IMG/VR virus record: IMGVR_UViG_3300047550_000290
Span: 1 to 33,993 of that record
Length of the DNA stretch: 33,993 nucleotides
From: a virus
Direction: 5' to 3' (one strand)
A program made the position numbers and the translations under genes. Below the pieces are notes generated by a model. That model had not been told where the DNA came from. It saw nothing but the letters and a program-made list of their open reading frames with translations, and made no database searches. Below are positions 1,765 to 9,367 of this stretch, one piece after another; the first letter of the stretch is position 1; every line of letters begins with the position of its first letter.

Positions 1765-1917
1765 ATGTCTCTTACTCTTGACCGTAAAGTAGCTACTGGT
1801 CTTCTCAGTAAGGCTACTACTGGTGATGATCTCTTGTCTGTACTTGAGATGATTACAGCTAGCTTCACCAAACCTGTTGCCAACACTGTTCCTACACTTG
1901 AGGAGATTGAGTTCTGA
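1765..1917 (+). CDS. Small early protein, first gene of the early cluster
   Basis: A 50-residue protein of unknown function, MSLTLDRKVATG...EEIEF. The start is chosen by a clear Shine-Dalgarno, GGAGG at 1753-1757, eight bases upstream of the ATG. It ends in TGATG, sharing a base with the next start. No known motif; predicted largely helical. It is the first of a run of overlapping small genes. Confidence 0.7.
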   Translation: MSLTLDRKVATGLLSKATTGDDLLSVLEMITASFTKPVANTVPTLEEIEF

Positions 1918-2135
1918 TGTCTGTGTTTACTTTTGATCAACTGCGTGATGCTGTGCAAGAATGCACCAGCTATGACCTTGTTCAACGGTTTAGTGATGAT
2001 GAGGATGAGTATGTGTTGATTGATCCGTATGGCGATCAAGATGGTGATGCTTTCTATGATCTCAATGATGTAGAGGACTTCATCCGTAACAATGATCAAG
2101 TCGACCAGTATTTGTACGAGCTTGTCAATCAATGA
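1917..2135 (+). CDS. Very acidic small early protein, possible DNA mimic
   Basis: A 72-residue protein with about 20 Asp/Glu and only three Arg and no Lys, giving a net charge near -17. The acidic residues cluster in the SDDEDEY and NDVEDF segments. Function is unknown. Such composition in the early region recalls small acidic DNA-mimic inhibitors such as T7 Ocr, although no sequence similarity to Ocr is visible. Its ATG overlaps the stop of the upstream gene and its stop overlaps the next ATG, so it sits in a coupled operon immediately before the ArdA-like gene and its upstream neighbour. Confidence 0.75.
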   Translation: MSVFTFDQLRDAVQECTSYDLVQRFSDDEDEYVLIDPYGDQDGDAFYDLNDVEDFIRNNDQVDQYLYELVNQ

Positions 2136-2284
2136 CATACTACATTGCACGTATGAATGATGAGGGTAATTGGGAGTATTTAGATAATGCTCCTAGTTAT
2201 TCTGATGCAGAGATGATGCTTGATGCGTACTGTGATATGTATCCAGCGTCTTACATTGACGTAATTCACACTCACGAGGGCTGA
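2132..2284 (+). CDS. Small acidic early protein
   Basis: A 50-residue protein (MTYYIARMNDEGNW...HTHEG) of unknown function. Its start overlaps the upstream stop (ATGA), and the next gene starts two bases after its stop. It is rich in Tyr, Asp and Met. The pattern of a short beta strand, an N-G or E-G turn and an Ala-rich helix resembles many tiny cyanophage proteins that have no assigned role. Confidence 0.65.
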   Translation: MTYYIARMNDEGNWEYLDNAPSYSDAEMMLDAYCDMYPASYIDVIHTHEG

Positions 2285-2286
2285 TT

Positions 2287-2865
2287 ATGACTGACACTGC
2301 TGTTGTTCCATTTATGCTCAAGGGTGATGCACTTGTTGAGTACGTAAATGAGAAGATGGAGCTTATTAATAGAAATGAGCTGACACGCACTGAAATGATC
2401 AAGGACGCAGGCTATGTGTACGACAACGGTAATGCTATGTACACACAGTTCTACACTGAGCTACTCAATGCCAAGGGTGTTGTACCTGTGACTAACAACG
2501 ACATTGCTGATCAAGAGTATGAAGATCTAAGTGTTGATAAGCGTAACCTCTATGATCGCATTGATGAATGGAGTGGTGCTAAGTGGACGCATGAGGAGCT
2601 GATTGAGTTCATTGATGAACTTGAGGACATTGGTATTGATACAGCGTCTGAGTTTGATGATGCCTATGAATGGGAGCATGATGGTTGGGCGTCTATGGCT
2701 GAGAAAGAGTTCGCTGAGTATTGGTGCATTGAGGTTCTTGATGCACAGATTCCAGAGTGTGTACTCGCTGCTGTAGATTGGCAAGATGTGTGGGATCACA
2801 ACCTACGTTATGACTTCTGCTATATTGAGACTGCTAACGGTACATTCTTCTTTCGTAACAACTAA
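2287..2865 (+). CDS. Putative AbrB-like/ArdA-like fusion, antirestriction candidate
   Basis: A 192-residue, strongly acidic protein that appears to have two parts. Residues about 10-66 (LKGDALVEYVNE...DAGYVYDNGNAMY...FYTELLNAKG) match the pattern of the cyanobacterial AbrB-like domain, with its GYV...G...FY.ALL.AKG core. Residues about 90-192 resemble the C-terminal part of ArdA antirestriction proteins: FDDAYEWEH, then a helix FAEYW, then IPECVLAAVDWQDVWDHNLRYDF, ending in FFFRNN (ArdA proteins typically end ...yiDye.fardl...y....vFr). ArdA mimics B-form DNA and blocks type I restriction enzymes. Position in the early cluster fits an anti-host-defence role, as with T7 Ocr. Both domain calls come from pattern recall and need a profile search; the N-terminal ArdA domain appears to be missing. 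Confidence 0.6.
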   Translation: MTDTAVVPFMLKGDALVEYVNEKMELINRNELTRTEMIKDAGYVYDNGNAMYTQFYTELLNAKGVVPVTNNDIADQEYEDLSVDKRNLYDRIDEWSGAKWTHEELIEFIDELEDIGIDTASEFDDAYEWEHDGWASMAEKEFAEYWCIEVLDAQIPECVLAAVDWQDVWDHNLRYDFCYIETANGTFFFRNN

Positions 2866-3023
2866 TGATGTTCAGAGTTATTCTTGATTCAGTAGACAAT
2901 CCTGGTAAGTTTACATTTATAACGGTTGATGGTGCTAAGGACTTAGATGATTGCCTAAATCACATCCGCACTAAGTTCTCTAGTGAGTTTGTTATTGATC
3001 AAATTCAGGAAATTACGGAATGA
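2865..3023 (+). CDS. Small hypothetical early protein
   Basis: A 52-residue protein starting MMFRVILDSVDNPG, of unknown function. The ATG shares one base with the stop of the ArdA-like gene (TAATG), and the stop overlaps the next ATG. The pattern is a beta strand, a turn, a second strand and then a helix, a common fold outline among tiny cyanophage ORFs. A second ATG follows directly and could be the real start. Confidence 0.6.
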   Translation: MMFRVILDSVDNPGKFTFITVDGAKDLDDCLNHIRTKFSSEFVIDQIQEITE

Positions 3024-3181
3024 CTATGACTGAGACCAACATTATCCTTGCTGTGATTGGCATGGTTGGGTTGTTCGCTACGGCTACAATCTATCAACGT
3101 GCTAATCGCATCACAAGTGTGTATTATGCTAACAAGGTTAATCGTGACCTTATCAACCTGAACAAGCGAGAGTTTAACTGA
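3020..3181 (+). CDS. Small single-pass membrane protein
   Basis: A 53-residue protein with one hydrophobic segment at about residues 8-24 (ILAVIGMVGLFATATIY), followed by a basic tail with several Arg and Lys. This suggests an N-out, C-in topology in the cytoplasmic membrane. Function is unknown; a small early membrane protein could interfere with host transport or block superinfection, but nothing here shows that. Start and stop overlap both neighbours by one to four bases. Confidence 0.65.
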   Translation: MTMTETNIILAVIGMVGLFATATIYQRANRITSVYYANKVNRDLINLNKREFN

Positions 3182-3369
3182 TGACAATTATCCACGACAC
3201 GGCTATTAAGGTTGATGTTTACCCTGATGAGTTCAAGCCCCTCATGAAGGCAGTAAAGTATGCTTTAGTGTGTGATGATTCACGCAAGGTATTTAATGAG
3301 GAAGAGTGGTCTACGCTTAATGCGTGGCTTGATGACTTTTGTGACATTGCACTTAACGAGGCTGTATGA
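3181..3369 (+). CDS. Small acidic early protein
   Basis: A 62-residue protein, MTIIHDTAIKVDVYPDEF...NEAV, of unknown function. It is acidic and predicted mostly helical, with an EEEWSTLNAWLDDF segment near the end. The start shares one base with the upstream stop, and the stop (TGA) overlaps the next ATG. Confidence 0.65.
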   Translation: MTIIHDTAIKVDVYPDEFKPLMKAVKYALVCDDSRKVFNEEEWSTLNAWLDDFCDIALNEAV

Positions 3370-3542
3370 AAGTCAACACCCGTGCATTGCTTGATCGCTT
3401 TATTCGTGAGGGGATTGAGCATACGTTCCTGAATACAGATGTTGAGTTAACGCCTATGGGTGAGCAGATCTTAGCCAATGACATAGAGCACCGCATCTGG
3501 CTTTACCTTGATGAATACTTCACCTTCGATGAGGACAACTAA
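3366..3542 (+). CDS. Small hypothetical early protein
   Basis: A 58-residue protein, MKVNTRALLDRFIREGIE..., of unknown function. Basic near the N-terminus and acidic at the C-terminus (FTFDEDN). It overlaps both neighbours (ATGA at the start, TAATG at the end). Predicted helical; no motif recognised. Confidence 0.6.
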   Translation: MKVNTRALLDRFIREGIEHTFLNTDVELTPMGEQILANDIEHRIWLYLDEYFTFDEDN

Positions 3543-3712
3543 TGGCTAAAGCACTGACTGATGAGCAACGCAAGCTGCGTCTTGAGTTGGTTGACCTTGC
3601 TGCTCAAGGTGTACGCACTCAAGCAACAGCTGGTTACTATGATGCTGAACAAGTATCGTATTTAACTCAACAACTTGAGCGTATTGCTAAGTTCCTTTGT
3701 GTTAAATCCTGA
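3542..3712 (+). CDS. Small hypothetical early protein, helical
   Basis: A 56-residue protein, MAKALTDEQRKLRLELVDLAAQG..., of unknown function. Two likely amphipathic helices (residues about 6-24 and 36-52) are joined by a GYYDAEQ turn, so it may form a helical hairpin. The start overlaps the upstream stop by one base. Fifteen bases separate it from the next start. Confidence 0.6.
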   Translation: MAKALTDEQRKLRLELVDLAAQGVRTQATAGYYDAEQVSYLTQQLERIAKFLCVKS

Positions 3713-3727
3713 TTCACACTCATCGCC

Positions 3728-3892
3728 ATGTTGACAATGACAAAGCCACTCAAAGAGTACGAAGTCACTACTAGCACTGGTGTTTGGTACTTACTTGCTC
3801 GTGATAACGAACAAGCTGCCTGGTCTGCTTTAGAGCTATCAGGGCAGCGTAATGAGAAACTACTTAATGTGAGGATTGCTGATGCCTGGTAA
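3728..3892 (+). CDS. Small hypothetical early protein
   Basis: A 54-residue protein (MLTMTKPLKEYEVTTSTGVW...ADAW) of unknown function. Two beta strands with a G-V-W-Y turn, then a helix (EQAAWSALELSG) and a last strand. Met-4 (3737) is an alternative start. The stop lies inside the next gene. Confidence 0.55.
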   Translation: MLTMTKPLKEYEVTTSTGVWYLLARDNEQAAWSALELSGQRNEKLLNVRIADAW

Positions 3893-4187
3893 GGATTATC
3901 TGCCTAACAACTGGCAAGAATATAAAGATGCACCTGATGATGCATTCATCCCTCATACCTTTGAGGAGATCATGTCGTGGAAGGTAGCAGGTTGGGAACT
4001 TCCTAGCTCTGTTGCTTGCATTATTCGTGTGTCTGATCGTAAGTCAGGCAAGGTTAAAGAGTTTGTCTACAGCAAGCCTAGCGCTGCTCGTAACAAGGTA
4101 GAAAAACTGTTAGCTACACCTGATGTAGAGTTTGCAGTATGTGACCACAAAGCTATTCACCACCTATCCCCTGAGTACAATGACTGA
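3882..4187 (+). CDS. Conserved-type hypothetical early protein
   Basis: A 101-residue protein of unknown function. I prefer the ATG at 3882 over the in-frame TTG at 3876 because GAGGA (3871-3875) sits six bases upstream. Features: a Trp-rich acidic N-terminal third (NNWQEYKDAPDDAFIPHTFEE is acidic apart from one Lys and one His), then strand-rich sequence with a basic K-S-G-K turn, and a helix SAARNKVEKLL. It overlaps the upstream gene by 11 bases and the next by 8 (ATGACTGA). Confidence 0.65.
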   Translation: MPGKDYLPNNWQEYKDAPDDAFIPHTFEEIMSWKVAGWELPSSVACIIRVSDRKSGKVKEFVYSKPSAARNKVEKLLATPDVEFAVCDHKAIHHLSPEYND

Positions 4188-4329
4188 TCTTGTTTTCTCT
4201 CGTCGTCTTCAACAACTAATCGATCAACTTAAGAATCACCCATTCAAAGAGGAGATCATCAAACTGGCACAAGAGCAGTTAATTGATGACTCCGATGTGG
4301 TAGAATACTGCATGGTCACTAATGACTAA
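4180..4329 (+). CDS. Small hypothetical protein before RNA polymerase
   Basis: A 49-residue protein (MTDLVFSRRLQQLIDQLKNHPF...), predicted helical, of unknown function. I chose the ATG at 4180, which overlaps the preceding stop as ATGACTGA, over an upstream in-frame ATG (4132) that would lie deep inside the preceding gene. It ends 18 bases before the RNA polymerase start. Confidence 0.55.
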   Translation: MTDLVFSRRLQQLIDQLKNHPFKEEIIKLAQEQLIDDSDVVEYCMVTND

Positions 4330-4334
4330 TTACC

Positions 4335-4341
4335 TGGAGAG
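4335..4341 (+). promoter_or_regulatory. Ribosome binding site setting a TTG start
   Basis: GGAGAGG lies six bases before TTG at 4348. It is one of the better Shine-Dalgarno matches in the window and decides the TTG start of the RNA polymerase gene; the next in-frame ATG is far downstream. Confidence 0.7.
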
Positions 4342-4347
4342 GTTTAT

Positions 4348-6687
4348 TTGGCTACACCAGCAGAGATTGATGCACAAGTTCAACTAGAAAGAGACCAAAT
4401 CAATCAAGGACTCAAGCGACTGCATGAACAACGCAGACAACTAGAGGAAAAGAGTTATGCGTCTGCCACAATTTATGGCGTGGCTTCTATTGATGCTCTT
4501 CTTCCTAAGCTGGTTGAACGTATCCAGGAGACCAACCATAGGATCTACCAAAGACAAAACGGAGTAGCATTCAAGGAGATTGCTGTCTACCTATCGGACA
4601 TTGAACCTATGGCATCCGCTGCTATTGCACTTAAGATAACCTTTGATAAGGTATTCTCATTTAAGCAGGGCAGTGATCAACTTGTTTCAGTGTGTGATGC
4701 TATTGGTTCGGCTGTTGAGGCTGAATGCCAGATGCGTCACTATGAACGTAATGCTCCGGGTTTACTGGCAACACTCAAGAAGAACTACTACCATAGTTCA
4801 ATGGGCACACATCAGAAGCTCGTTGTTATACGAACACTGATGAATCGTTGTGAGGTAGATCAGTGGCCTGCATGGGGTAGAACTAATCGTATCAAACTAG
4901 GTACGTGGTTGTTGGATTGTATTATCCAAACAAGCAACTGGTTTACCAAAGAACTCAAACAAGAGGGTAAGAACCGCGTTAATTACGTTGTCCCTACACC
5001 TGAGTTCATTGAGATCAAGGATCGCATCATGAAGGATGCTGAACTCTTTGCTCCACTTGCATGGCCAATGCTAATCGAACCTAATGATTGGGCTGTTGGT
5101 AGGTCTGGTGGTTACATCTTGAACGAGGTGATGCACGGACATGAAATGGTTCGCCGGGGCAACCACCCATGTATACAGGGGGAGATACCCTATGCCTTTT
5201 TGAACAAGATTCAGAAGGTTGCTTATCGACTAAACCCCTTTATTGTAGGGGTTGCTGAAGAACTAAGCAGACTGGAACGTTCAGTCGGTAAGTTTCTCCC
5301 TATCGTTCATCACGAGCTGCCTGCTAAACCTGCTGATATTGAAACTAATTACGATAGTCGTAAGGATTATCGGAGAAGAGCAGCAGCTGTGATGAATACC
5401 AATGCTCAAGAGTTTAAGAAGTCATGTAGAACTCGCATGACAATGGAAGCAGTAAAACGCTTCAAGGATGTACCTAAGTTCTACATACCGTGGTCTTTTG
5501 ACTATAGAGGTAGAGCTTACCCTATTCCTAGTTTCTTAACTCCCCAAGATACTGACTTCGGTAAGTCATTGCTTCGTCTTGCTGATGAGGCTTATATGAC
5601 ACCTGAAGCTGAGGATTGGATAGCATTTCAAGTTGCTACCTGCTATGGTCTAGATAAGGCTGCAATGGTAGAGCGTCTTGAGTGGGTACGAAATAACATC
5701 ACACTCATCACGCAAGTTGCCACAGATCCAATTGGATCGTTACCTGAATGGGAAGCAGCAGAAGAACCATGGCAGTTTCTAGCAGCATGTGAAGAATACT
5801 ATCATTGCGTGATCGCAGCTGATAGACAGTTCACTGGACTGATGATAGCAACAGATGCTACCTGTTCAGGTCTACAAATTCTAGCAGGTCTTGCTAGAGA
5901 TCGTAATACCGCTCGCCTTGTTAATGTCTTACCTGGTGATAAACCACAAGATGCTTACAAAGTAGTTGCTGAGGAAGCTACACCTCATTGCCCTGCTTCT
6001 ATTCAACCATATATGGATAGGAAGACGGTCAAGAGGGTAGTGATGACAGTACCGTATAACGCTAAACCTTTCTCTAATCGTGGCTACATCCGAGAAGCTT
6101 TAACTGAAAAGGGCGTAGAGATCTCTAAAGAAGATCTAACCGCAACTGTCAAGGCAGTTAGAGATGCTATGAATCGTGTCGTCCCTGGTCCCATGGCCGT
6201 GATGACGTGGATTGAGAAGGAAGTAGCTAATGCTATTAAATCTGGCAAGACATTCCTTGAGTGGACAACACCATCTGGGTTTGTCGTACACCAAAAGCTG
6301 AACAAGAAACAGTTTGAGGTCTTAGATCTACAACTGCTTGGTCGCTGTAAGATGAAGGTTGCAGTTGGTGACACAGATGAGGTTGACATCAACCATCACA
6401 AGAACGCTACTGCTCCTAATCTTATCCATAGTTTAGATGCGTCCTTGCTCCATTTAGCTGTCTTACGATTTGACGCACCAATTGCTCTCATTCACGATTC
6501 TGTGCTTTGTCGTGCAACGGACATGTCCACCTTGTCCACTATTGTACGAGAAACATACATGCACTTATTCGCAGAGCATGATTATCTAAAAGACTTTGCC
6601 CTGCAGATCGGGGCAGAGACTGAACCACCGATCATTGGTGATCTGGAACCAGAGACCGTGATTGAATCCACCTATTTCTTTTGTTAA
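4348..6687 (+). CDS. T7-type single-subunit RNA polymerase
   Basis: Transcribes the replication and late genes from phage promoters. It is 779 residues, about 100 shorter than T7 gp1 (883), with the reduction mostly in the N-terminal half. Catalytic motifs are all visible: FDYRGRAYPIP (about residues 383-393, T7 MDWRGRVY); motif A DATCSG with Asp503 (T7 Asp537); O-helix KRVVMTVPYNAK with Lys562 and Tyr570 at the T7 Lys631/Tyr639 spacing; HSLDASLLH; and motif C IHDS with His716-Asp717 (T7 His811-Asp812). The N-terminal 50 residues are charged and coiled-coil-like. It starts with TTG behind a good ribosome binding site. The stop overlaps ssb (TAATG). No integrase gene separates it from ssb, unlike P-SSP7. 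Confidence 0.97.
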   Translation: MATPAEIDAQVQLERDQINQGLKRLHEQRRQLEEKSYASATIYGVASIDALLPKLVERIQETNHRIYQRQNGVAFKEIAVYLSDIEPMASAAIALKITFDKVFSFKQGSDQLVSVCDAIGSAVEAECQMRHYERNAPGLLATLKKNYYHSSMGTHQKLVVIRTLMNRCEVDQWPAWGRTNRIKLGTWLLDCIIQTSNWFTKELKQEGKNRVNYVVPTPEFIEIKDRIMKDAELFAPLAWPMLIEPNDWAVGRSGGYILNEVMHGHEMVRRGNHPCIQGEIPYAFLNKIQKVAYRLNPFIVGVAEELSRLERSVGKFLPIVHHELPAKPADIETNYDSRKDYRRRAAAVMNTNAQEFKKSCRTRMTMEAVKRFKDVPKFYIPWSFDYRGRAYPIPSFLTPQDTDFGKSLLRLADEAYMTPEAEDWIAFQVATCYGLDKAAMVERLEWVRNNITLITQVATDPIGSLPEWEAAEEPWQFLAACEEYYHCVIAADRQFTGLMIATDATCSGLQILAGLARDRNTARLVNVLPGDKPQDAYKVVAEEATPHCPASIQPYMDRKTVKRVVMTVPYNAKPFSNRGYIREALTEKGVEISKEDLTATVKAVRDAMNRVVPGPMAVMTWIEKEVANAIKSGKTFLEWTTPSGFVVHQKLNKKQFEVLDLQLLGRCKMKVAVGDTDEVDINHHKNATAPNLIHSLDASLLHLAVLRFDAPIALIHDSVLCRATDMSTLSTIVRETYMHLFAEHDYLKDFALQIGAETEPPIIGDLEPETVIESTYFFC

Positions 6688-7262
6688 TGGCACAACCCAT
6701 CCACATTACCCAACAGCCTGTTGTCCTTGAAGGCTATCAAGCTGTGCTGAAACCTAGTAAGTTTGGCTACTCACTGTCTGCGATCCTTGATGATAAGATG
6801 ATCGCTACTCTTGAAGAGGATCGAGTTGAAACTCTCAAGTGGGCAGAGAGTAAGCTGAAGAACCCTAAGCGTAGTGTACTTAAACCTGAGCCTTGGGAAG
6901 AGGTGTCTACTGGTAAGTACAAGGCTAAGTTCTCCTGGAATGAAACCAACCGGCCACCTGTTGTCGATAGTGAAGGGACACCTATCACTAACCTTGATCT
7001 GCCTGTCTACAGTGGCAGCAAGGTGAAGCTTGCTTTCAAGCAAAAGCCTTACATCCTCAAGGATGGTGTCACCTACGGCACTAGCCTTAAGCTTGTAGGA
7101 GTGCAAGTTGTAGAGCTTAATGGTTCTGCTGGTGTCGATAGGAGCGACCTTGGTGACGCTGAGGTGGCTGCTCTGTTCGGGCAGACCACTGGGTTCAAGG
7201 CTGACTCAGCACCGCCTACTGTGGTCGATGAAGAGCCCGTGGCAGAAGACGACGACTTCTGA
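6687..7262 (+). CDS. Single-stranded DNA-binding protein (T7 gp2.5-like)
   Basis: Coats single-stranded DNA at the replication fork and contacts polymerase and helicase through its acidic tail. 191 residues (T7 gp2.5 has 232). The last residues, DEEPVAEDDDF, form the acidic tail ending in Phe that is diagnostic of gp2.5-type proteins. The body is a strand-rich OB-fold-like sequence. I chose the ATG at 6687, which overlaps the RNA polymerase stop, over the in-frame TTG at 6681. Its stop overlaps the endonuclease start (TGATG). Position between RNA polymerase and endonuclease I supports the call. Confidence 0.88.
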   Translation: MAQPIHITQQPVVLEGYQAVLKPSKFGYSLSAILDDKMIATLEEDRVETLKWAESKLKNPKRSVLKPEPWEEVSTGKYKAKFSWNETNRPPVVDSEGTPITNLDLPVYSGSKVKLAFKQKPYILKDGVTYGTSLKLVGVQVVELNGSAGVDRSDLGDAEVAALFGQTTGFKADSAPPTVVDEEPVAEDDDF

Positions 7263-7615
7263 TGGCGTATCGCTCAGGTCTGGAGGTGAAGGTCGCTGAT
7301 CTTCTCTCCAACTTGGGAGTTAAGTACGAATACGAATCAACTAAAGTACCATATGTCTTGCAGTGCAACTATACGCCAGACTTCCTCTTGCCTAATGGTG
7401 TCTTCCTTGAAACAAAGGGCCACCTGACGGAAGAGGATCGTCGTAAGATGAAAGCTGTCAAGGCTGCTAATCCTGATCTAGATATTCGTTTCGTATTTCA
7501 ATCCCCTTACAACAAGATCTACAAAGGATCAAAGACAACCTATGCCAAGTGGGCTGAGAAACACGGCTTTCCTTGGTGTGCATTTCACTCCATCCCCATT
7601 GATTGGTTAACATGA
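7262..7615 (+). CDS. Endonuclease I, Holliday junction resolvase (T7 gp3-like)
   Basis: Resolves branched DNA before packaging and helps break down host DNA. 117 residues against 149 in T7; the T7 basic N-terminal and C-terminal extensions are missing. The core follows T7 gp3 closely: FRSGLE becomes YRSGLE with Glu8, then KVPYV, YTPDFLLPNG with Asp40, and FLETKG with Glu50 and Lys52. These four match T7 Glu20, Asp55, Glu65 and Lys67. Further matches include LDIRFVF and KIYKGS. Coupled to ssb by a one-base overlap and to the next gene by four bases. Confidence 0.95.
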   Translation: MAYRSGLEVKVADLLSNLGVKYEYESTKVPYVLQCNYTPDFLLPNGVFLETKGHLTEEDRRKMKAVKAANPDLDIRFVFQSPYNKIYKGSKTTYAKWAEKHGFPWCAFHSIPIDWLT

Positions 7616-7836
7616 TTGCTGCTACCCCCACTCGTTTCGAGTACGGCACTGCTGAGTTCTACGAAGAGTCGTTCTCTGATATTCTTGCTGATGTAGACTC
7701 TGATAACCCGGAGTATGCTGATGCAATTGTTGAGGGATTCCTGAAATCAATCGACTCTTGGTTTAACTATCACGACCATCAAGCCACTGCATATGATGAA
7801 CTCCGACAGCGAGTTCGTAAGGCACTTACCGTGTGA
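7612..7836 (+). CDS. Small acidic protein in the T7 gp3.5 position
   Basis: A 74-residue acidic protein of unknown function. It occupies the place where T7 carries lysozyme gp3.5, but shows no amidase motif (no zinc-binding His pattern). I took the ATG at 7612 (ATGA overlap with the endonuclease stop). Features: an acidic middle (DILADVDSDNPEYADAI), then SWFNYHDHQ. It overlaps the primase-helicase start by 44 bases in another frame. Confidence 0.65.
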   Translation: MIAATPTRFEYGTAEFYEESFSDILADVDSDNPEYADAIVEGFLKSIDSWFNYHDHQATAYDELRQRVRKALTV

Positions 7837-9367
7837 CAATTGTGGGTCATCTGACGCAAACTCTTTGTACTCAGATGGCCACACTTTTTGTTTCTCGTGT
7901 AATGCCTACGGTAATACCGAAAACGTTCACACTCATAAAATGTCCACCAATGTCAGACTACAAGGCTCAGCTGAACGGCTGCAGAAACGAAACCTATCCG
8001 AAAAGGTCTGCCAGCAATACAAAATCTACCGAGACGGAGACGTTCTACGGTTCCATTATTTCGACAGCTCTGGCGTACTTAAAGGGTGTAAGGTAAAGAC
8101 TAAAAACAAAATATTTACTTATGAAGGAGAGACGCCTGGAACACTCTTTGGACAACATTTGTTTCCCGCCACTGGAAAACGAGTCGTTATCACCGAAGGA
8201 GAACTCGATGCAGCTAGCTGTCAAGAAGCTATGCCGGGGTGGCCGATGGTTTCTCTACCTAGCGGTGCCGCTTCGGCAAAGAAGTCGATTCAACGGTCTC
8301 TCCAATGGCTCCAGGGTTATGAGGAGATTGTCCTGTTCTTCGACAATGACGAGGCAGGCCGTAAAGCGGCGGAGGAGGCGGCAAGCGTCCTACCACCTGG
8401 CAAGACAAAGATCGCCCGTCTGGAGGCGTACAAGGACGCATCAGACGCTCTCCAAGCCAATGACTCCGAAGCAATTCGCAGAGCTATTTGGGATGCTAAA
8501 CCGTACAGACCAGATGGCATTGTTGATGGCAGATCTCTCCTTGAGTTAGTAACTACACCCTCTCCACCATCTGATCATGACTACCCATTCAATGGGCTAC
8601 AAAAGAAGCTTCACGGGATACGGTACGGAGAGCTTGTCACAATTACTGCTGGATCTGGCATCGGAAAATCCTCGTTCTGTCGTGAACTCGCAACTAACCT
8701 TCTCAGTAACGGCGAACGAGTCGGGTATTTGGCACTTGAAGAGTCAAATCGTAGAACGGCCCTAGGGTTAATGTCCGCTGCTGTAGGCAAATCGCTCCAT
8801 CTTGGAGAGTATGATCGAGAGACGTTGACCGAAGCGTACGAGGCAACACTAGCGAAGTGGAACCTATTCCTGTTTGATGGCTTTGGTTCATTCGATCCTG
8901 ACTTGATCTACAATCGAATTGAATACCTGGCAGCAGGTCTTGATGCGAAGGTAATCTTCCTTGACCACCTATCTATTCTGCTTTCTGGCCTCGATGGAGA
9001 CGAGAGGCGGATGATAGATACAACAATGACTAAGCTACGTTCTCTTGTAGAGCGTACGGGTGTTGCCATGTTCCTTGTTTCACATCTACGACGAACATCT
9101 GGAGACACTAACCATGAAGAAGGGGCACGGGTTACACTTGGACAGCTGCGCGGAAGTGCGGCAATTGCACAACTCTCTGACGGAGTTATTGCACTCGAAC
9201 GCGATCAACAGGCCGCAGCTGGAGGAAGTAATACAACAGTGCGAGTCCTTAAAAATCGCTATTCGGGCGAAGTTGGCATCGCTTGCAATCTAAGTTATGA
9301 TTTATCCACCTGTAAATTCCATGAAACAGAAGCAGCAGAAGAGTTCGACGCAAGTACAGACTTTTGA
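7793..9367 (+). CDS. Bifunctional primase-helicase (T7 gp4-like)
   Basis: Unwinds DNA ahead of the polymerase and makes primers. 524 residues against 566 in T7. Domains in order: a zinc ribbon with Cys14, Cys17, Cys33 and Cys36 (CDNCGSSDANSLYSDGHTF is nearly identical to T7); a TOPRIM primase with Glu135 in ITEGELDA and Asp184/Asp186 in FFDNDEAGRKA; a linker; and a RecA-like hexameric helicase with Walker A SGIGKS (Lys292) and Walker B VIFLDHLSIL. The C-terminus ends DASTDF, like the T7 tail that contacts the polymerase. I saw no good ribosome site for a gp4B-like internal start, although a Met lies near residue 50. The start lies inside the preceding ORF. Confidence 0.97.
   Translation: MMNSDSEFVRHLPCDNCGSSDANSLYSDGHTFCFSCNAYGNTENVHTHKMSTNVRLQGSAERLQKRNLSEKVCQQYKIYRDGDVLRFHYFDSSGVLKGCKVKTKNKIFTYEGETPGTLFGQHLFPATGKRVVITEGELDAASCQEAMPGWPMVSLPSGAASAKKSIQRSLQWLQGYEEIVLFFDNDEAGRKAAEEAASVLPPGKTKIARLEAYKDASDALQANDSEAIRRAIWDAKPYRPDGIVDGRSLLELVTTPSPPSDHDYPFNGLQKKLHGIRYGELVTITAGSGIGKSSFCRELATNLLSNGERVGYLALEESNRRTALGLMSAAVGKSLHLGEYDRETLTEAYEATLAKWNLFLFDGFGSFDPDLIYNRIEYLAAGLDAKVIFLDHLSILLSGLDGDERRMIDTTMTKLRSLVERTGVAMFLVSHLRRTSGDTNHEEGARVTLGQLRGSAAIAQLSDGVIALERDQQAAAGGSNTTVRVLKNRYSGEVGIACNLSYDLSTCKFHETEAAEEFDASTDF

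Follow-up and report, generated by a model that had tools for sequence, protein, structure and literature searches.

An early cyanophage protein joining a cyAbrB N-terminal domain to an ArdA-like domain, a possible counter to host gene silencing

The window analysed here is a complete stretch of 33,993 bases from a virus record, kin to the T7-like Synechococcus phages (Autographiviridae). Along it, thyX (232-867) is followed by a non-coding leader, a run of small ORFs and a T7-like RNA polymerase gene (4348-6687, + strand), which provides the context for an early region. The small forward ORFs are tightly packed and span 1765-4329; inside this early block, 5' of the polymerase gene, lies P0001 (2287-2865, + strand), an ORF of 192 aa with an SD-like GAGGG 5' of its ATG, present exactly as described in an earlier note on this DNA. 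Ahead of the early ORFs, the leader carries a sigma-70-like promoter sequence (TTGACA-17-TATGGT; 1504-1532, + strand); promoter matches in total are no more numerous than expected from shuffling, which makes this sequence weak evidence for a promoter. The order of P0001 homologue, small ORFs and RNA polymerase recurs in DSL-LC07, S-CBP1, S-B28, WH11-B and 7B11-B, and in S-CBP1 the interval from the homologue to the polymerase (L002:2856-4014) contains genes annotated as a transcriptional regulator and an integrase. P0001 has a net charge of -31, of which -27 falls in the C-half (125 residues); the view of it as an early, acidic protein thus holds in both respects. Small acidic proteins are common in this region, and a 72-aa early ORF at 1917-2135, with a net charge of -17 and an acid density exceeding that of the ArdA-like half described below, is possibly a further candidate DNA mimic.

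Homologues covering both halves of P0001 were found by tblastn in seven phage records, all of Synechococcus phages, and relatives were found in viral contigs, 50 in a first scan and then 123, of which 80 were kept. The family comprises 69 distinct sequences among 135 loci, with whole-protein net charges from -33 to -24. Between P0001 and seven relatives, dN/dS ranges from 0.19 to 0.35 in the N-half and from 0.09 to 0.25 in the C-half, indicating that both halves are maintained by purifying selection. Single-sequence searches of P0001 against Pfam, NCBIfam and PDB sequences returned nothing useful, so that its resemblances are invisible to a standard annotation search; a PDB bromodomain match (E 0.049) was set aside as chance. 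The product name ‘antirestriction protein’ has already been given in GenBank to the homologues in DSL-LC07, WH11-B and 7B11-B. The cyAbrB half appears to be unreported as far as we found: the open-access papers searched yielded no report of a cyAbrB domain in phages or of an ArdA-cyAbrB fusion, an absence that is not proof.

The N-half follows the pattern of cyanobacterial AbrB (cyAbrB), as the earlier note had recognised. Using host cyAbrB sequences taken from cyanobacterial genomes, we aligned the N-half profile to host cyAbrB residues 1-54 at P = 3.6e-12 (HH-suite hhalign). The score was 65.7, and none of 200 column-shuffled controls exceeded 9.9; smaller inputs gave P = 6.6e-9 (first 15 rows) and 6.2e-7 (P0001 alone). 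An HMM of the cyAbrB N-domain finds all 69 phage members, shuffled sequences reaching E 3.9 or worse, and the phage profile matches 189 of the 201 host-family genomes, nearly always through its N-terminal part and in cyAbrB-sized open frames. Common to both sides is the pattern LxG..L....(S/T)(R/K)(T/S)(E/D)....(A/C)GYV......FYxxLLxAKG, and divergent members such as L317, which has SFTAFYEALLEAKGV at the place where host proteins have NFTAFYEALLEAKGV, bridge the phage N-half and host cyAbrB at the sequence level. The aligned region, residues 11-66 (2317-2484, + strand), is predicted by AlphaFold to form a helix (13-28), a second helix (34-40), a small hairpin and a third helix (52-62), with pLDDT of about 90 or more across most of its length. 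A linker of four residues (67-70; 2485-2496, + strand; pLDDT 74 in the block 61-70) separates it from the second aligned region.

CyAbrB differs from other AbrB proteins in carrying its DNA-binding domain in the C-terminal region (PMC4284466), and the Pfam AbrB-like model for this DNA-binding region, PF14250, covers cyAbrB residues 43-110. PF14250 has no match anywhere in the window, and neither the N-half (HH-suite, P = 0.3) nor the C-half of P0001 matches the C-terminal part of cyAbrB. The PF14250 result looked refuting at first; since the model covers only cyAbrB 43-110, homology to the N-domain is unaffected. We therefore reject the N-half as an AbrB DNA-binding domain, and with it the ‘host-type DNA-binding fold’ that had been proposed for this half, because the alignment is confined to cyAbrB 1-54 and the C-terminal DNA-binding part is absent; judged by profile comparison, residues 11-66 are homologous to the cyAbrB N-terminal domain instead. 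Within this domain, the position just ahead of GYV holds Cys in 66 of the 72 host cyAbrB sequences, and Ala (67/69) or Ser (2/69) in the phage family; in P0001 it is Ala41 (2407-2409, + strand). The host cysteine probably corresponds to the one glutathionylated in Synechocystis cyAbrB2, Cys34. Glutathionylation of the single cysteine of AbrB2 alters oligomerisation and DNA binding (PMC4264147, PMC13421787), and since the position is never Cys in the 69 phage sequences, this control would be lost in the phage proteins.

The C-half had been likened to the last two-thirds of ArdA, a DNA mimic known from defence-evading plasmids; this likeness is borne out by fold and more weakly by sequence. In the PDB, the two top hits of the full-length AlphaFold model of P0001 (pLDDT 88.7, pTM 0.61) are both to ArdA 2w82 (probability 0.90 and 0.94), and among viral models it matches several antirestriction proteins. 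When the C-half was modelled by itself (pLDDT 90.9, pTM 0.81), Foldseek matched it to 2w82_A with a probability of 1.00 and to 2w82_B with 0.99, over 118 and 107 columns, all other listed PDB chains scoring 0.15 or less. The E-values (0.0085 and 0.033) and TM-scores (0.53 and 0.52) of these two matches are modest, which points to a divergent relative of ArdA. In the model, the DWQ-x-VWD-x-x-L segment (residues 164-173; 2776-2805, + strand) contains a predicted helix at 165-173, with W165, V168 and D170 invariant in the alignment of P0001 relatives, and a predicted C-terminal beta hairpin with strands 177-182 and 185-190 runs into the FFFRN ending (residues 177-190; 2815-2856, + strand). Structure prediction, one of the checks suggested beforehand, gave an ArdA match for this half, whose net charge counted from the sequence is about -27.

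At the sequence level, the PHROG ‘anti-restriction’ family was matched by 18 of 26 members (best E 7.9e-5). A few relatives reached the ArdA model PF07275 at E 0.0055-0.029, with collinear coordinates and below the 27-bit cut-off; neither P0001 nor any of the relatives searched passed this curated cut-off. A first ArdA profile comparison with the close family only was not significant (P 0.061), and one that included divergent members and was restricted to the middle and C-terminal part of ArdA gave P 3.4e-5, with a score of 27.5 against a shuffled maximum of 15.1. As this restriction was chosen after the first result, we regard the fold match as the stronger evidence. Profile searches of the separate halves, also suggested at the outset, succeeded for cyAbrB through hhalign, stayed below the Pfam threshold for ArdA and failed with single-sequence Pfam. 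ArdA's own N-terminal domain is absent: residues 1-67 match cyAbrB instead, and comparison of the N-half profile with ArdA gives P 0.75. On the strength of the predicted models, residues 71-192 (2497-2862, + strand) are an ArdA-like domain that comprises the middle and C-terminal fold and lacks the ArdA N-terminal domain. A cyanobacterial sequence with a sub-threshold PF07275 match (L239) was considered as a relative and discarded, as it does not match the C-half profile.

Each half is also found apart from the other. Stand-alone C-halves occur in Cyanophage NATL2A-133 (CYPG_00064, 120 aa, HMM E 2e-13), in MedDCM-OCT-S04-C24 (113 aa, HMM E 4e-15) and in a further contig (L322), and a 116-aa open frame of this kind lies on the minus strand of L421, from cyanobacterial genome G259, where it may be a host gene or a prophage remnant. 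In NATL2A-133 the C-half adjoins a DNA methyltransferase gene (L242:2375-2737 and 2803-3372), the two forming a possible anti-restriction pair. The cyAbrB N-domain in turn makes up the whole of gp074 of Prochlorococcus phage P-TIM68 (L419:1498-1656; 52 aa), a candidate truncated cyAbrB antagonist, and in gp246 of Synechococcus phage B23 (L420:1414-1842) it is followed by some 75 residues of unrelated, basic sequence at the C-terminus. In the viral collection it stands at the C-terminus of a short protein (L329:1767-2189) and mid-way in a 240-aa open frame (L365:79-798). On the minus strand of L418, host proteins of 589 aa (3132-4901) and 1110 aa (5240-8572) share a hydrophobic N-terminal segment followed by the cyAbrB N-domain and long repeat arrays, and a 1052-aa open frame in G361 has the domain as well. 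Full-length cyAbrB with both domains is present in many viral-collection contigs (L326-L381, e.g. L332, L351 and L368), which may be viral or host DNA; one such query had no full-length match in the isolate phage collection. Its occurrence alone and with varied partners marks the N-domain as a mobile module, which in the P0001 family has been joined to ArdA.

Taken together, P0001 is almost certainly an early protein that combines a cyAbrB N-domain lacking the cyAbrB DNA-binding domain with an ArdA-like DNA-mimic domain lacking the ArdA N-domain. Because the cyAbrB DNA-binding domain is absent, what is fused to the DNA mimic is a truncated nucleoid protein, not a DNA-binding fold; of the anti-host design proposed in the earlier note, the anti-host appearance persists through both homologies and the DNA-binding fold does not.

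CyAbrB2 is described as a nucleoid-associated protein that binds AT-rich DNA, including IS elements, with an H-NS-like preference, and it has been suggested as an H-NS-like defence against exogenous DNA (PMC11368403). CyAbrB1 interacts with cyAbrB2 (PMC11368403; PMC4264147; PMC13421787) and self-interaction of AbrB1 has been reported (PMC4264147; PMC13421787); the biochemistry of cyAbrB oligomerisation is described as lacking in PMC11368403. Silencers of the H-NS type are known to be countered in two ways that P0001 brings to mind. H-NST, which lacks the H-NS DNA-binding domain, antagonises H-NS, and T7 gp5.5 and LUZ24 gp4 act as ligands of the oligomerisation domains in such silencers; for T4 Arn, a block of H-NS through DNA mimicry has been proposed (PMC8501957). 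Ocr, ArdA and Arn also influence H-NS-dependent gene regulation (PMC12707154). By analogy, P0001 looks like a DNA-binding-dead partner or oligomerisation ligand and a DNA mimic, both in one chain.

We envision that the N-domain, a partner unable to bind DNA, would join host cyAbrB complexes or dock on them, so placing the acidic ArdA-like half beside the cyAbrB DNA-binding surface, where it would compete with DNA; early in infection cyAbrB, as an H-NS-like silencer, would thereby be stripped from, or blocked on, the AT-rich DNA of phage and host. Type I restriction enzymes or their relatives may be a further target of the ArdA half. We put this inferred docking and displacement at a little short of an even chance; in this reading the cyAbrB N-domain would be an oligomerisation domain. 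With slightly less assurance still, we regard P0001 as a possible two-part counter-silencer, in which a copy of the host nucleoid-protein N-domain, stripped of the DNA-binding part, would target an ArdA-type mimic to that same protein in a manner both H-NST-like and Arn-like. The 52-aa N-domain of P-TIM68 is what would be expected of a truncated nucleoid-protein antagonist and so supports docking. The N-domain may bind something other than cyAbrB, since it is also found in host proteins unlike cyAbrB, some of them large and with a hydrophobic N-terminal segment, and the commonness of small acidic proteins in the early region counts against a counter-silencing role. Among the 201 host-family genomes, PF14250 is near-universal (198) and hsdR over cut-off is patchy (39), which favours cyAbrB as the target only mildly, because patchy defences are often encountered by phages and the genomes include drafts.

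The same survey bears on a more conventional reading, in which the DNA mimicry of the ArdA-like half would serve to inhibit enzymes of type I restriction-modification or BREX-like systems, with the cyAbrB part merely a structural or dimerisation substitute for the ArdA N-terminal domain. The ArdA fold of the C-half, the PHROG and GenBank labels, the methyltransferase gene beside the NATL2A-133 C-half and the hsdR genes of those 39 genomes all speak for it, as does the finding that C-terminal ArdA fragments (sArdC) shield phage lambda DNA against type I restriction in E. coli (PMC12548430). However, it leaves unexplained why a host nucleoid-protein domain was chosen and then maintained by purifying selection, type I restriction has a patchy distribution in the host family, and the ArdA sequence similarity stays under curated cut-offs; we consider this reading the main and a strong rival, with a little over a third of the weight. 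Alternatively, the cyAbrB domain could recruit the acidic half to cyAbrB, RNA polymerase or regulators in complexes bound to host DNA, so that host transcription is redirected with cyAbrB left in place. ArdA proteins can bind a repressor, AllR, opening its promoter (PMC13300388), and the recurrence of the N-domain in varied proteins is as expected of a recruitment module, but no specific target is indicated and a silencer left in place needs an extra step, making this option unlikely. Least probable of all is that the N-domain now serves a structural purpose in the phage, with no link to cyAbrB biology, and that the acidic C-half acts on some target that is neither a restriction enzyme nor a silencer: the function of each family member is a prediction and very acidic small neighbours share its region, yet both halves retain family patterns and fold and both are constrained (dN/dS).

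A counter-silencing role suits the architecture at least as well as antirestriction, which is itself plausible, and the two roles are mutually compatible. The comparison with known systems sharpens what is distinctive. P0001 shares with ArdA (PF07275; Tn916 ArdA, PDB 2w82) the fold of its C-half, acidity, carriage by a mobile element and a place in the early region, and differs in having a cyAbrB N-domain where ArdA has its N-terminal domain and a sequence below the Pfam cut-off. According to a title cited in PMC13300388, ArdA counters H-NS repression through its N-domain; if this is right, the domain that P0001 has exchanged would be the silencer-directed one. Like sArdC, it retains the C-terminal part of ArdA without the N-terminal domain, but sArdC is unfused and about one-third of ArdA in length, whereas P0001 has about two-thirds plus the cyAbrB domain (PMC12548430). 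With cyAbrB1 (Sll0359) and cyAbrB2 (Sll0822) it shares an N-terminal domain of about 55 residues; it lacks their PF14250 DNA-binding domain and has Ala or Ser for the conserved Cys. H-NST and other truncated H-NS antagonists would work alike, as nucleoid-protein domains without a DNA-binding domain on mobile elements, but they belong to an unrelated family, have no DNA-mimic half and, in the case of H-NST, are experimentally supported, whereas P0001 is known from sequence and models. Phage DNA mimics such as T4 Arn and T7 Ocr are likewise acidic and act on restriction and H-NS; they are non-homologous families with no host-derived docking domain.

Cyanophages shape primary production in oceans and lakes. 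Proteins of the P0001 type are made by phages of ocean and lake cyanobacteria, and their architecture suggests that these phages may disarm host gene silencing, with or instead of DNA-cutting defences. If this is true, P0001 would, to our knowledge, be the first cyanophage factor directed against silencing and would provide evidence for cyAbrB as a defence against phage DNA. A widespread early protein with a cyAbrB N-domain and a DNA mimic makes the proposal of an H-NS-like role for cyAbrB directly testable; it also offers a way into the study of the cyAbrB N-domain, and through it the ArdA family gains a member in which one domain has been swapped.
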